The notes under the pieces: model-generated
The model's input: only the letters and a program-made list of their open reading frames with translations
What the model was told of the DNA's origin: nothing
Database searches by the model: none
Program-made: the position numbers and the translations under genes
NCBI RefSeq assembly: GCF_014191255.1
Contig: NZ_JACHWH010000003.1
Coordinates: forward strand, 563,501-627,500
Reading direction: 5' to 3'
DNA from: Amycolatopsis bartoniae
Lineage (GTDB): Bacteria > Actinomycetota > Actinomycetes > Mycobacteriales > Pseudonocardiaceae
DNA length: 64,000 nucleotides
Shown here: positions 53,829 to 59,579 of the stretch, piece by piece
Layout: every line of letters starts with the position of its first letter
Numbering within the stretch: position 1 is the first letter of the stretch

Positions 53829-55133
53829 ATGGCCGCACTGGGCGCTTCGACGAGGTTCGGGTACGCCCTCGGGTCGTTGACCACGGGCGCCTTCGGCACC
53901 GTGCCCGGCCTGCTGCTGCTGCCGTACCTGACCGACACGATGGCGGTCCCCGGCGCGGTCGCGGGCGTGATCGTGCTCGTGCCCAAGGCGTGGGACGTCG
54001 TGTTCAACCCGTTCGCCGGGCGGCTGTCCGACGCGGACCTCGTCCGGTCCGGCAGCCGCCGCCGGTTCCTGCTGTCCGGCGGGATCGGCGTCGCGGTGCT
54101 GTTCGCCGTGCTCTTCGCCCACCCCGGGTTCGGTGGCACGGCCGCGGACGCCACCTACGTCGTGGTCGCGTTCCTGTTGTGCGCCACCGCCTTTGCCCTC
54201 TTCCAGGTGCCCTACAACGCGCTGCCCGCCGAGCTCACCGCCTCCTACGACGAGCGGACCCGGCTCACCAGCTGGCGCATCGGCCTGCTCGCGGTCGCCA
54301 TCCTGATCTCCGGCGGAGTCGCGCCCGCGATCACCGACAGCGTCGGCGGCGTGATGGGCTACCGGGTGATGGGTGTCGTGATCGGACTGGTGATCCTGGC
54401 CGGCACGATCGGCGTGTTCCTCGGCACCCGCGGCGCCCCCGTCGGCGACCGGCGGCCGCCGACGACGGGCTGGCGCGACCTGCTGGCCACGATGCGCGCG
54501 TGGAGCTCGTTCCGCTGGCTGCTGGGTGTCTACTTCGTGCAGTCGCTGGGCACCGCCACCCTGCTGGCCGGCGTCAACTACGCGGCGCGCCAGGTGTTCG
54601 GCGACGCCGGGCTGCAGACGGTGCTGTTCGTCGGCTTCGTCGGTCCCGCGTTGCTGACCATGCCGCTGTGGCCCCGCGTCGGGGCGCGCTGGGGCAAGCT
54701 GTGGGGCTTCCGCTTCGCGTGCATCGCGTTCGCGGTGGCGATGCTCGGCCTGGTCGCGGCGCTGGTGCTGCCGTTCGGCGTGTCGATCGTGTTCGTGGCG
54801 CTCGCCGGGGTCGGCTACGCGGGCATCCAGGTGTTCCCGCTGGCGATCCTGCCCGACCTGATCAGCGCCGAGGAGGAACGCACCGGCGCGACGCGGGCCG
54901 GGATCGCGGCCGGGGTGTGGACGGCCGCGGACACGCTCGGCCTCGCACTCGGGCCGGGCCTGTTCGGGCTGATCCTGTCCGCAGGTGGCTATGTGTCCAG
55001 TGTGGACTCTTCGGCGGCGCAGCCGCACAGCGCGGTGGTCGCGATCCTGCTCGGTTTCTCGCTGCTGCCGGGAATCCTGGTGACACTGGGCATTCCGCTG
55101 CTGCGCCGCTCGGTGCTGGAGCCCGCGCGGTGA
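53829..55133 (+). CDS. MFS / GPH-type cation symporter
   Basis: 434 aa, about 12 helices, MFS_2 (glycoside-pentoside-hexuronide) type. Signature loop KAWDVVFNPFAGRLSDADLV and VPYNALPAELTASYDERTRL in helices 4-5. AGGAGG precedes ATG 53829. Its stop overlaps the PLP decarboxylase start by 4 bp (GTGA), suggesting uptake of the decarboxylase substrate or export of its product. Confidence 0.84.
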   Translation: MAALGASTRFGYALGSLTTGAFGTVPGLLLLPYLTDTMAVPGAVAGVIVLVPKAWDVVFNPFAGRLSDADLVRSGSRRRFLLSGGIGVAVLFAVLFAHPGFGGTAADATYVVVAFLLCATAFALFQVPYNALPAELTASYDERTRLTSWRIGLLAVAILISGGVAPAITDSVGGVMGYRVMGVVIGLVILAGTIGVFLGTRGAPVGDRRPPTTGWRDLLATMRAWSSFRWLLGVYFVQSLGTATLLAGVNYAARQVFGDAGLQTVLFVGFVGPALLTMPLWPRVGARWGKLWGFRFACIAFAVAMLGLVAALVLPFGVSIVFVALAGVGYAGIQVFPLAILPDLISAEEERTGATRAGIAAGVWTAADTLGLALGPGLFGLILSAGGYVSSVDSSAAQPHSAVVAILLGFSLLPGILVTLGIPLLRRSVLEPAR

Positions 55134-56521
55134 CGGACGTCCTCGCCGAGCTGCGGGCCCTGCGGGCGGGAGACCTGCCGACGCACGGCGGCCGCACGCT
55201 CGCCTACGTCTACGACAGCGGGCTGGCCGGGCTCGACGAGCTGGCCGGCGAGGCGCACGCGCTCGCGTCGTCGGCGAACGCGCTGGACCCGACGGCGTTC
55301 CCGAGCCTGCTGAAGCTGGAGAACGACCTCGTGGCCGCGGCGGCCCGGCTGCTCGGCGGCGGGGCCGGCACGGTGACCTCCGGTGGCACGGAGTCCTGCC
55401 TGCTCGCGGTCCTCGCCGCCCGCGGCGACGCGCCCGAGCCGAACATGGTGCTCCCGTCGACGGCCCACGCGGCGTTCCACAAGGCAGCGCACCTGTTCGG
55501 CGTGCGGCCGGTCGTCGTGCCGGCCGACCCGCGGACCTTCCGCGCCGACGCCGGCGCGATGGCCGCCGCGATCGACGAGTCGACAGTTCTCGTCGTGGCC
55601 AGCGCGCCCTCCTACGCCCACGGCGTGCTCGATCCGGTCGCGGAGATCGCCGCCACGGCCGCCGCCCGCGGGGTCCGGATGCACGTCGACGCCTGCATCG
55701 GCGGCTGGGTGCTGCCGTACTTCCGGCGCCTGGGCCGGGACGTGCCCGAGTTCGGGTTCGCCGTCGACGGCGTCACGAGCGTTTCGGTCGACCTGCACAA
55801 GTACGCCTACTGCCCGAAGGGCGTCTCCGTGCTGCTGCACCGCGACGCCGGGCTGCGCCGCGGGCACTACTTCGCGAGCGCGCGCTGGCCCGGGTACACG
55901 ATGCTCAACACCACGCTCCAGTCCACGCGGTCGGGTGGTCCGCTCGCCGCCGCGTGGGCGGTGCTGCGGAAGATCGGCGACGAGGGCTACCTCCGGCTCG
56001 CCGAGGAGACGCTCACCGCCGTGACGCGGATCCGGGACGGCGTCGAAGGAATCGACGGCCTGCGGGTGCTCGGCGAGCCGGACTCCACACTGCTCGCGCT
56101 CGCGGCGGCGACGGACGAGTTCGACCTGTTCACCGTCGCGGACGAGATGCGCGAGCGCGGCTGGTACGTGCAGCCGCAGTTCGCGCACGAGTCCTCGCCG
56201 GTCAACCTGCACCTGACCGTGACGGCGGCGAACCGGGGGAGCGAGGACGAGTTCCTCGCCGACCTCGCGGCCTCGGTCGCCGCCGCCCGCGCCGCCGGTC
56301 CCGTGCGCGTGGATCCGGACGTCGCGGCGTTCGTCGCCGCGCTGGACCCGGACACCCTGACGGCCGAGCAGTTCGCCGGGCTGCTCACCGCGGCGGGCCT
56401 CACCGGCGGCGGCGCGCCGCCCGCCCGCATGGCGGAGATCAACACGCTGCTCGCCGCGGCGCCGCCCGCCCTGCGGGAACGGCTGCTGCTGGAGTTCCTG
56501 GGCGCGCTCTACCGGCCCTGA
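55130..56521 (+). CDS. PLP-dependent decarboxylase / sphingosine-phosphate lyase-like
   Basis: 463 aa fold-type I PLP enzyme of the group II decarboxylase family. PLP Lys224 in [13 protein letters not shown], Asp187 in [10 protein letters not shown], His113 in [13 protein letters not shown], and [12 protein letters not shown] for the phosphate. Closest in layout to sphingosine-1-phosphate lyase rather than glutamate decarboxylase. The C-terminal 90 residues (from about 375) are a variable helical tail. Translationally coupled to the MFS carrier. Ends 13 bp inside the convergent rpmF gene. Confidence 0.83.
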
Positions 56522-56661
56522 AAGTGCCGGATCAGCTTGCGCGGCACCAGCTTGCGCTCGCCGTCGACCACGATCGGCACGAGGTCCGGCGCGGTGGCCT
56601 GCCACCGCGCCCGGCGGGTCCGGGTGTTGCTGCGCGACATCCTGCGCTTCGGCACGGCCAT
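56509..56661 (-). CDS. rpmF: 50S ribosomal protein L32, zinc-independent form
   Basis: 50 aa, [20 protein letters not shown] and then [13 protein letters not shown]. It lacks the four Cys of the zinc-binding L32, so it is the Cys-minus paralogue made under zinc limitation. ATG 56661 overlaps the stop of the rpmE2 remnant by one base (TGATG). It overlaps the convergent PLP gene by 13 bp. One of three intact members of this cluster. Confidence 0.88.
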
Positions 56662-56795
56662 CAGGAACGCCCTCCCCGTCGCCCGTAACGGCGGTGGAAC
56701 TTCTCGACCTGCCCCGCCGTGTCCATCACGCGCCGCGAGCCGGTCCAGAACGGGTGCGAGGACGAGCTGACGTCGACCAGCACGATGCTTCCCTT
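56661..56795 (-). pseudogene. rpmE2: 50S ribosomal protein L31 type B, N-terminal half deleted
   Basis: The frame ends [20 protein letters not shown] and [18 protein letters not shown], the C-terminal half of L31B. The first 40 or so residues (normally starting MK-GIHP-YR) are missing; upstream is the tail of the MRF gene. A GTG at 56783 with AAGGGAAG before it could still start a 40-residue peptide, but it would lack the part that enters the ribosome. Confidence 0.8.
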
Positions 56796-56799
56796 TCGC

Positions 56800-57634
56800 C
56801 GGGTACTTCGGCCCACGACCCGAACGGGTCGGGGTAGGCGCGCCAGGCACCGGGCCCGGCCGCCAGCTCTTCGTCGGTGAGCAGCGCGCCTGCCAGCGCG
56901 CCGGAGACCTCCTCGGGCGTGGTCCGGTCGGTCACCACGACCAGTTCCTGCGCCCGGTCGCCGAACACCGGGTCCCAGCGCAGCGGCGCCAGCGCGCCGG
57001 TCCGGCGACACGTCGTCCCAGCCCGGCCCGTCGTCGGCGTCGAGCCACGGGCCCGCGTCGCCGACACCGAGGCCGCCGCCCGCGGACTCGATCCACAGCG
57101 CGGTGTCCGGCTGGCTGGCGACCCACGCGCGGCCGCGGGTGCGGACCACGCCGTCGAGCAGGACGTCGATCGCCTCGTGCAGGCGCGCGGGGTGGAACGG
57201 GCGCCGCGCGGTGAACAGCAGCACCGAGATCCCGCAGTCGGGGTGCAGCGGCGGCTCACCGGCCAGCAGCGGGCCGTGCAGGTCGGTGACCTCGCCGCGG
57301 CGCGCGTCCGCCGGGAGCGGAGGCAGGGGATCGGCGATGTCGGCGCACAGTGCGGCGGGCGCGACGCGGTCGAGCACCGCGGCGGTGCGCATCACCTGCG
57401 CTCGTCCTCGGGACTGGCCTGGCGGCCGCGCTCGGCGAGCGTGTCGTCGCCCATGGCGTCCGCCAGCCAGCTCGACTCGTCGAGCCGGAGCACGATGCGC
57501 GCCACCTCCGGCATGCCCGCGAGGCGGCGCAGCAGCGGCAGCAGGTCCTCGCGCAGGGTGCAGGACACGCAGCCGTGCGCGAGCTCCAGCGTCACGGGCG
57601 TGCGGGGGTCGGGAAGGTTTCCATGGCTGTGTAC
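56800..57634 (-). pseudogene. mrf: MRF-type CobW-like GTPase, truncated and frameshifted
   Basis: Pieces in three frames match the ribosome-hibernation-factor-recruiting GTPase of Zur-controlled ribosomal operons. 57634-57392 encodes [20 protein letters not shown] to [19 protein letters not shown], then stops. 57395-57010 continues [29 protein letters not shown] and [19 protein letters not shown]. After a shift near 57008, [16 protein letters not shown] to [17 protein letters not shown] follows. About 50 N-terminal residues and a middle block between the first two pieces are missing. The CxSC metal motif survives. Not expected to be functional. Confidence 0.8.
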
Positions 57635-57640
57635 GTTAGA

Positions 57641-57655
57641 TGAAAATGAAAACCA
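57641..57655. promoter_or_regulatory. Zur-box-like site between rpmB and the mrf remnant
   Basis: TGAAAATGAAAACCA resembles the actinobacterial Zur consensus (TGAAAATG-n-TTTTCA type): the left half is perfect and the right half degraded. It sits 21 bp before rpmB in the divergent gap, the usual place for Zur control of Cys-minus ribosomal genes. Confidence 0.55.
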
Positions 57656-57675
57656 ATGCTAACTACGGGTGGTCG

Positions 57676-57912
57676 ATGAACAGGATCTGCCAGGTCACCG
57701 GCAGCAGGCCGGGCTACGGCAAACAGGTCTCGCACTCGCACCGGCGCACGGCGCGCCGCTGGGAGCCGAACCTGCAGAACCGCCGGTTCTTGCTGCCGGG
57801 CGAAGGCCGCTGGATCCGGCTGAGGGTGTCCGCCCAGGGCATCAAGACGATCGACAAGCGCGGCATCGAAGCCGTCGCCGCTGAACTGAAGGCCAAGGGA
57901 GTGAAGCTGTAA
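57676..57912 (+). CDS. rpmB: 50S ribosomal protein L28, alternative form
   Basis: 78 aa, [20 protein letters not shown] then [20 protein letters not shown]. Only one Cys, so zinc-independent. ATG 57676 is chosen by the L28 N-terminus; the open frame upstream to 57640 crosses the Zur box. Full length. Stop overlaps rpmG by one base (TAATG). Confidence 0.92.
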
Positions 57913-58076
57913 TGGCGAAGAACGACGTACGCCCCGTCATCAAGCTGCGGTCCACCGCGGGCACCGGCTACACCTACGTGACGCGCAAGAACCGCCGCAA
58001 CGACCCGGACCGGATGGTCGTGCGCAAGTACGACCCGATGGTGCGCCGGCACGTCGAGTTCCGGGAAGAGCGCTGA
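57912..58076 (+). CDS. rpmG: 50S ribosomal protein L33, alternative form
   Basis: 54 aa, [40 protein letters not shown] and HVEFREER at the end. No Cys pairs, so the zinc-free paralogue. Intact. Its TGA overlaps the ATG of the rpsN remnant (TGATG). Confidence 0.92.
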
Positions 58077-58146
58077 TGGCGAGCCCCGTGCGGCTGTTTC
58101 CGCAAGTTCGGGCTGTCCCGGGTCCGGCTGCGGGAGGTGGCCGCCA
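58076..58146 (+). pseudogene. rpsN: 30S ribosomal protein S14, internal deletion
   Basis: Starts ATG GCG, then jumps to SPVRL, normally about residue 55 of S14, and after a second deletion and frame change to RKFGLSRVRLREVA (normally about residue 75 to 90). About 70 of 100 codons are gone. The initial overlap with rpmG is kept. Confidence 0.8.
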
Positions 58147-58247
58147 CGTCCCGTCAAGCGCAGGAAGAACCTGCTGACCACTACGGGGGTGTCCGGAGTG
58201 GACTGGAAGGACACCGAGCTGCTGCGCTGCCCTACGGCACGCGCTGA
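58147..58247 (+). pseudogene. rpsR: 30S ribosomal protein S18, start lost and internal deletion
   Basis: Begins RPVKRRKNLLTTTGVSGVDW and KDTELLR (normally residues 3-30), without a start codon. It then passes out of frame straight into LPYGTR and TGA (58245-58247), the natural last residues of S18. About 40 central codons are deleted. The S14 tail and S18 head are also joined by a deletion at about 58146. Confidence 0.82.
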
Positions 58248-58361: not shown

Positions 58362-59579
58362 ATGTCGGAAGACCACTACCTCGTCGGCCTCGACCTGGCC
58401 GGGCGGCGCGTCGTCCTGGTCGGCGGGGGCACCGTCGCCCAGCGCCGGCTGCCCCGGCTGATCGGCGCGGGCGCCGCGGTCGAGCTGATCTCACCGCACA
58501 CCACCGCCGCGGTGGGAGCGATGGCCGACGCGGGCGAGGTGGTCTGGCACCGCCGCCGCTACACCGACGGCGACCTCGAAGGCGCGTGGTACGCGCTCGC
58601 CTGCACTGACGACCCGCAGGTCAACGCCGCTGTCTGTGCCGAGGCCGAGCGCCGCCGCGTGTTCTGCGTGCGCGCCGACGCCGGCACCGAGGGCACCGCC
58701 GTCACCGCTGCTTCCGGACGGCACGAAGGGCTCGTCGTCGGCGTGCTCTCCGGCGGCGAGCCGCTGCGCTCGGCCGCCGTCCGCGACAACATCGTCGCGG
58801 CACTGGACAGCGGCCTGATCGCCGACACCGTGCCGCGCCGGGACGGCGAGCTGCCCGGCGTCGCGCTCGTCGGCGGCGGGCCCGGCGACCCCGAGCTGAT
58901 CACCGTCAAGGGCCGCCGCCTGCTCGCCCGCGCCGACGTCGTGGTCGCCGACCGGCTCGGCCCGCGCGAGCTGCTCGACGAGCTGCGCCCCGACGTCGAG
59001 ATCGTCGACGCCGCGAAGATCCCCTACGGCCGTGCCGCGAGCCAGGACTTCATCAACCAGACGCTGATCGAGCACGCCAAGGCGGGCCGGTTCGTGGTGC
59101 GCCTCAAGGGCGGCGACCCGTACGTGTTCGGCCGCGGCTTCGAGGAGCTGCTGGCCTGCGCGGAGGCGGGCGTGCCCGTCACCGTCGTCCCCGGTATCAC
59201 CAGCGCGTTCTCGGTGCCCGCGATCGCCGGGGTGCCCGTCACCCACCGCGGCGTCGCGCACGAGGTCGTCGTGGTGTCCGGGCACGTGCCGCCGGGCCAC
59301 GAAGCCTCGCTGACCGACTGGGACGCGCTCGGCCGGATGCGCGGCACGATCGTGCTCATGATGGGCGTGGACAAGCTCGACCGCTTCGCCGGCGCGCTGC
59401 TCGCCGCGGGCCGCCCCGGCGACACGCCCGTCGCGATCGTCGAGAACGGCACCATGCCCACCCAGCGCATCACGAGGTCCACATTGGACACCGTGGCCGC
59501 CGACGCGGAGGCCGCGGGCGTGCGCCCGCCCGCGGTCACCGTCATCGGCCCGGTGGCCGGCCTGTCTCAGAACTCGTAG
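58362..59579 (+). CDS. cobA: siroheme synthase: precorrin-2 dehydrogenase + uroporphyrinogen-III C-methyltransferase
   Basis: 405 aa fusion. Residues 1-150 are the CysG N-terminal NAD domain (RRVVLVGGGTVAQRRLPRLI). Residues 165-400 are SUMT with VALVGGGPGDPELITVKGRR, VVRLKGGDPYVFGRG and VVPGITSAFSVPAIAGVPVT. It makes sirohydrochlorin (precorrin-2 level) for siroheme or cobalamin; the CysG ferrochelatase-associated dimerisation domain is shortened. A CAGAAT element 6 bp before the ATG suggests a leaderless start. Converges with the hydrolase gene, overlapping by 13 bp. Confidence 0.92.
   Translation: MSEDHYLVGLDLAGRRVVLVGGGTVAQRRLPRLIGAGAAVELISPHTTAAVGAMADAGEVVWHRRRYTDGDLEGAWYALACTDDPQVNAAVCAEAERRRVFCVRADAGTEGTAVTAASGRHEGLVVGVLSGGEPLRSAAVRDNIVAALDSGLIADTVPRRDGELPGVALVGGGPGDPELITVKGRRLLARADVVVADRLGPRELLDELRPDVEIVDAAKIPYGRAASQDFINQTLIEHAKAGRFVVRLKGGDPYVFGRGFEELLACAEAGVPVTVVPGITSAFSVPAIAGVPVTHRGVAHEVVVVSGHVPPGHEASLTDWDALGRMRGTIVLMMGVDKLDRFAGALLAAGRPGDTPVAIVENGTMPTQRITRSTLDTVAADAEAAGVRPPAVTVIGPVAGLSQNS

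Follow-up and report, generated by a model that had tools for sequence, protein, structure and literature searches.

The two described systems closest to the locus considered here both encode alternative ribosomal proteins. In Streptomyces coelicolor, rpmE2, rpmF2, yciC (COG0523), rpmB2, rpmG2, rpsN2 and rpsR2 are Zur-regulated, according to a table that does not give their order (PMC6103462). In mycobacteria, the alternative ribosomal protein (altRP) operon is described as comprising the genes for S14-2, S18-2, L28-2 and L33-2, and as conserved among mycobacteria (PMC5912738). We analyzed a 64,000-nucleotide stretch (the window) of contig C3 of the Amycolatopsis bartoniae genome, a 7.76-Mb assembly in 23 contigs (G000; G001 and similar numbers denote relatives). 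At positions 56,509-58,247, this stretch carries genes for L32, L31B and a COG0523/MRF GTPase on the minus strand and for L28, L33, S14 and S18 on the plus strand. These are the same seven gene kinds as in the S. coelicolor table, and the right-hand arm holds the same four genes as the mycobacterial operon. A control region with a Zur-like box, a candidate for a further feature in common with the S. coelicolor system, lies between the two arms. Unlike that regulon, however, four of the seven genes are broken in A. bartoniae, and Zur control is here predicted from sequence. Likewise, in contrast to the mycobacterial operon, the cluster is eroded in this genome and absent from 5 of 19 genomes of the genus. 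The locus is, judged by its gene content, the known actinobacterial Zur-type cluster for alternative (zinc-free) ribosomal proteins, spares that normally serve when zinc runs short, with putative Zur control. It has very probably been caught early in decay, with recent deletions and with open genes that have probably not yet been hit.

The damage was read from a pairwise alignment with the sister genome (G011:C32:26350-29150), and coordinates refer to the window. Seven or eight blocks of 38-200 bp are missing from the genes for L31B, the GTPase, S14 and S18, in addition to a 2-bp frameshift; the count varies because the loss in S14 can be aligned either as deletions of 159 and 38 bp or as a single one of ~200 bp. 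The L31B remnant (rpmE2-type; 56,661-56,786, minus strand), recognized by alignment and profile, retains residues 45-85 only, residues 1-44 and the start codon being gone, with the break at 56,784/56,805. The remnant of the COG0523/CobW-type GTPase (MRF/yciC-like; 56,806-57,624, minus strand), recognized by alignment and Pfam, has lost ~79 bp at 57,396/57,397, 108 bp at 57,473/57,474 and 153 bp at 57,590/57,591; it also lacks 2 bp near 56,998 and has gained 2 bp near 57,608. By alignment, the S14 remnant (rpsN2-type; 58,076-58,141, plus strand) consists of the first two codons, an arguable SPVRL block and residues about 71-88, while the S18 remnant (rpsR2-type; 58,142-58,247, plus strand) has lost its own start and keeps residues about 6-33 and the last six. 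A further 52 bp are missing where the two remnants join (58,141/58,142), and 112 bp are missing within S18 (58,225/58,226). The reading frames of all four genes are disrupted, and the cluster does not have all of its member genes intact. The alignment bears out the first-pass annotation, made from the sequence alone, in describing these four genes as broken by internal deletions. Its account of the GTPase holds for the loss of a middle block and the frameshift but not for a complete loss of the N-terminus: the first few codons survive, and the block immediately after them is missing. One effect of the frameshift and the L31B deletion is an open frame of 244 codons (56,661-57,395) in which fragments of the GTPase and L31B are fused; we take this to be due to chance.

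The other three genes are open. L28 (rpmB2-type, C-minus; 57,676-57,912, plus strand, 78 aa) and L33 (rpmG2-type, C-minus; 57,912-58,076, plus strand, 54 aa) were found by Pfam and genome search and score above the Pfam cut-offs in the window, in agreement with their earlier description as complete. L32 (rpmF2-type; 56,509-56,661, minus strand, 50 aa), identified by alignment and genome search, had also been called complete; it is open and exceeds its cut-off in the whole-genome search, but its C-terminal tail is altered, reading HFQGR-stop where the sister genome has HFHRSAR-stop, and overlaps the end of a convergent decarboxylase gene. The start/stop overlaps that had been noted are present, TAATG at L28/L33 and TGATG at L33/S14. 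Comparison of sequences with what we take to be the Zur motif places the predicted Zur-like box at 57,636-57,663, in the divergent promoter region.

The site can be followed through the genus by its edges. On the left is a full-length gene (55,133-56,521, plus strand) that we take to encode a pyridoxal phosphate (PLP)-type decarboxylase, and on the right a full-length, presumably cobA/siroheme-synthase-like gene (58,362-59,579, plus strand), both as judged by comparison with relatives. Among 19 genomes of the genus, including that of A. bartoniae, 11 have every gene of the cluster, three are partial (G000, G003 and G012) and five are without any (G002, G004, G007, G010 and G016), so that the site is eroded or emptied in seven genomes besides G000 (five empty and two partial). 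The 11 complete cases include G009, with L32 and L31B on another contig, and G013, whose usual neighbours were unseen in the stretches fetched. Where the cluster is absent, the decarboxylase and cobA-like genes lie ~100-200 bp apart in G002, G004, G007 and G016 and ~3 kb apart in G010. At the emptied site of G002, a 36-base scrap of L33 persists between them (G002:C46:87,500-87,725; L158). In G003, L33 is the sole remaining gene of the cluster; in G012, L33 and S14 are open, L28 is gone, S18 lies in two frames and most of the decarboxylase is lost as well. Common to all three partial states are an open L33 and a broken or missing S18. This comparison, which the first-pass annotation had proposed, supports its view of an eroding Zur-type alternative ribosomal cluster, with relatives that are intact, eroded or empty and, as shown below, junctions unlike assembly joins.

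In a tree of rpoB and cobA, G000 is sister to G011 (99/98), G007 (empty) pairs with G018 (intact) (100/100), and G003, G004, G009 and G012 group together (96/99). At least six changes between intact and lost-or-eroded states are required, or eight if eroded sites are scored separately from absent ones. This count gives no direction, which was taken from the remnants. Given these changes and the remnants, the cluster has therefore most likely been lost several times within the genus, and in G000 later than the split from G011, as judged from the sequences compared.

Several further observations concern the layout in relatives. Away from the main cluster, G009 carries L32 and L31B (G009:C134:25,578-25,974) and G012 carries L31B alone (G012:C18:437,919-438,155); the left arm therefore appears to have moved or been duplicated in that clade. 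In G013, a second, badly truncated copy (L31B, mid-GTPase and the start of L28; G013:C57:38908-39628, L164) lies ~5 kb from the complete one. In G011, genes that we take to be transporter-like separate the decarboxylase from L32 (G011:C32:22,840-26,510), and their place beside L32 is taken, in seven other species, by a second COG0523-like match (26-29% identity) to the GTPase.

We used codon models to compare selection on the broken and open genes. Three fits were made, with all relative branch lengths taken from the species tree and held fixed, with only the tested branch free, or with all branches free; all three rely on a single tree, in which some branches are weak, and on F3x4 codon frequencies. 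For S18, nine intact genomes and G000 were fitted, without G012, G013 and G018; the S14 pieces of G000 did not enter the fits. With fixed relative lengths, omega on the G000 branch was 0.078 for the surviving GTPase pieces (background 0.074) and 0.075 for L28, L33 and L32 jointly (background 0.045, p 0.09). Singly, the open genes gave 0.029 for L33 (background 0.024), 0.107 for L28 (0.060) and 0.089 for L32 (0.052), none of these differences being significant. The neutral share, f, defined as the last fraction of the G000 branch evolving neutrally, was best fitted as 0 for the GTPase and S18 pieces, with an upper limit of about 0.05, and as 0.06 for the three open genes (range about 0 to 0.22), for which f = 0 was worse by 2.04 log units, a borderline result. 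Thus, relaxed amino-acid substitution was not seen in the broken GTPase and S18 pieces, and constraint on this branch is no stronger in the open genes than in the broken ones, the open genes appearing, if anything, slightly more relaxed. Oddly, the seven or eight large deletions are matched by no more than a few tens of neutral substitutions (~0.06 per codon at the upper limit). Since amino-acid changes are not in excess in the broken pieces, decay in G000 is, on this codon evidence, recent and deletion-driven.

The behaviour of L33 and of the Zur-like box was compared among relatives. In a 29-bp core overlapping the box, G000 differs at 0-2 sites from G001, G009, G011 and G012, and the five genomes differ among themselves at 0-3; the other group, of seven species, and G013 carry a different sequence at this position. 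The core that precedes the lone L33 of G003 (G003:C1:3,062,655-3,062,766; L161) is unlike that of each of these five relatives at 7-8 of the 29 sites. The L33 gene of G003 differs from theirs at 5-10 of 108 first and second codon positions and at 10-18 of 54 third positions. The box of G003 thus diverged about as fast as third positions, and the contrast between the box and positions 1 and 2 gave Fisher p values of 0.001 to 0.05 across the five comparisons. Omega for this L33 was 0.077 (background 0.022, p 0.02; against 1, p 3e-14); the free-branch fit put it at 0.038, and treating the branch as neutral throughout was worse by 5.25 log units. These small numbers suggest that L33 of G003 has outlived its putative zinc switch. 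For L33 of G012, omega was raised over background at borderline significance (p 0.053), and a value of 1 was rejected in the fixed-length fit; with the length free, the best neutral share was ~0.3, a wholly neutral branch being 0.17 log units worse and a share of zero 3.67 worse. Taken one at a time, the L33 branches of G000 (p 0.68) and G012 (p 0.27) did not depart significantly from neutrality in the free-branch fit; this fit is unstable on 54 codons, G000 alone giving a branch near zero and an omega of 7.4.

A survey of 150 genomes of the family, in which copies of L33 and S18 were tallied by eye, found at least two of each in 103 genomes and one L33 with at most one S18 in 38. Seven genomes had two L33 and one S18, and two had one L33 and two S18, a difference that was not significant in a sign test by hand. 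We inspected the loci of six of the seven (G000 being excluded) and that of G060, which has three L33 copies. Five of the six have an open L33 in a 3-kb locus in which S18, S14 or L28 is either damaged or was not detected; the exception, G146, still holds S18 in its cluster and was set aside. In G060, most of the GTPase is missing. For the two reverse cases, G099 and G112, only a distant L33 was found. Because the set was chosen by L33, it cannot by itself show that this gene goes last.

The explanation that would remove the phenomenon altogether is that the deletions are errors of sequencing or assembly in GC-rich DNA and that the cluster is intact in the organism. An artefact predicts deletions without relaxed substitution, as measured here, and the assembly is a draft in 23 contigs. 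Yet eroded or empty sites also occur in the single-contig genomes G003, G007 and G016, and both genes flanking the cluster in G000 are full length. The islands between deletions (~60, 77 and 84 bp) are too short for stitched contigs. Breakpoints share only 0-3 identical bases, with a mean of 1.1 over eight junctions against 0.89 at random, so that overlap-based misjoins are not expected; here the sister genome stands in for the ancestor, and some shared bases may have been missed. Dropout of GC-rich DNA was rejected as a cause, since the deleted stretches have 66-84% GC against 72% overall and only the 38-bp one (84%) is markedly richer. The damage was also set against its surroundings in 177 kb of alignment with G011, drawn from one 400-kb stretch of the genome. 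Of 13 events of 30-400 bp in which G000 is the shorter, six fall inside the cluster, whereas none of the five events in which G011 is the shorter does so. The concentration of deletions in the cluster exceeds chance, and genome-wide assembly trouble is not supported, only seven further such events lying in the rest of the 177 kb. We therefore regard an artefact as highly improbable; the states of the relatives, the concentration of deletions and the junction sequences indicate that the damage most likely lies in real DNA.

If the deletions are real, the survivors could have been spared for a reason. The first-pass annotation had proposed relaxed selection on the 30S and hibernation genes with possible retention of the 50S set; on this view, L28, L33 and L32 would be kept as a zinc-sparing subset. 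All three genes are indeed open beneath a nearly unchanged Zur-like core, none has an omega significantly above background, and in the family L33 without a second S18 (7 of 150) outnumbers the reverse (2 of 150). However, L31B is a 50S protein and is broken, and G012 keeps S14 (30S) open with L28 (50S) gone, which rules out a clean split by ribosomal subunit. With a neutral share of 0.06, the open genes show no stronger constraint than the broken ones, and the main support for a kept 50S set is therefore removed; we consider such retention improbable, and the comparison of omega values does not uphold the selective relaxation that was claimed. Rather unlikely, but worth a tentative place, is continuing selection on L33 alone, with the rest dispensable and L33 the last to go. 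It is open in all three partial states, is the only open gene of G000 without a raised omega, left the sole matched gene scrap at the emptied site of G002, and accompanies damaged or unfound S18, S14 or L28 in five of six family genomes selected for carrying two L33 with a single S18; in G003, with every other gene gone, its omega is far below 1. On the other hand, a short gene escapes deletion easily, the family genomes were chosen by the presence of L33, which biases their count, and C-minus L33 was not found in five genomes of the genus. Its omega is above background in G003 and at the borderline in G012, where it is not separable from a wholly neutral branch, and neutrality was not rejected singly in G000 or G012. 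A joint reading, in which the cluster decays in deletion bursts that outpace point mutation and the zinc-free L33 outlives both the rest and, in G003, the putative zinc switch, appears unlikely. If it is true, L33 of G003 may be a permanent, zinc-uncoupled second ribosomal protein.

Four points weigh against the preferred reading of a known cluster in early, deletion-driven decay. Microhomology at the junctions is near chance level and offers no mechanism of deletion, and microhomology-driven deletion was rejected as a candidate. Neutral drift does not usually produce large deletions unaccompanied by point decay, a pattern that would also fit an artefact. The rpoB-only tree gives no support for the position of G000 (52/27), whose pairing with G011 needs cobA. 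Lastly, the GTPase is called MRF from its place in the cluster and from Pfam hits to CobW domains; the remnant scores 38.4 bits for PF07683 (cut-off 22) and, weakly, 19.0 bits for PF02492 (cut-off 20.7).

MRF/COG0523 GTPases recruit a hibernation factor to ribosomes. At E 1e-10, no GTPase homologue was found in G000 beyond the pieces in the cluster; a weak match (23% identity, E 0.002) lies at G000:C3:611,001. The ribosomal proteins have counterparts elsewhere in this genome: primary copies of L33, L28, S18, L31, L32 and S14, read individually, have 3-4 cysteines each with at least one CxxC, ligand motifs from which zinc binding is predicted. Of the copies in the window, L33 lacks cysteine altogether, as do the L32 residues shown; L28 contains a single one and no CxxC. 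The search for intact copies elsewhere, suggested with the original description, thus yielded cysteine-bearing primary S14, S18 and L31, but genome searches with six ribosomal proteins and the GTPase found no second complete zinc-free set.

The preferred reading implies that ribosome remodelling under zinc limitation may no longer be needed in the G000 lineage, so that deletions would be tolerated. L28, L33 and L32 would then probably be genes that deletions have yet to reach, rather than a jointly retained set, although L33 may persist longer than the others. The frameshift, the internal deletions and the range of relatives from intact to empty site resemble ordinary bacterial deletion decay; unlike it, the cluster has several large deletions without a measurable excess of amino-acid changes, and its decay seems more deletion-rich than drift alone would produce. 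Judged by titles and the starts of abstracts, we found no account in the literature of decay of a Zur-type cluster in Amycolatopsis. The locus is a snapshot of repeated, natural gene loss in a known cluster, not a new kind of system, and it provides a clean case for measuring deletion against substitution in gene decay. Across the 19 genomes, the site runs in a natural series from intact through partial to empty, with several state changes in one genus. With this series it can be asked which of the zinc-free ribosomal proteins merit retention by themselves, and whether remodelling of the ribosome under zinc limitation is dispensable for soil actinomycetes.

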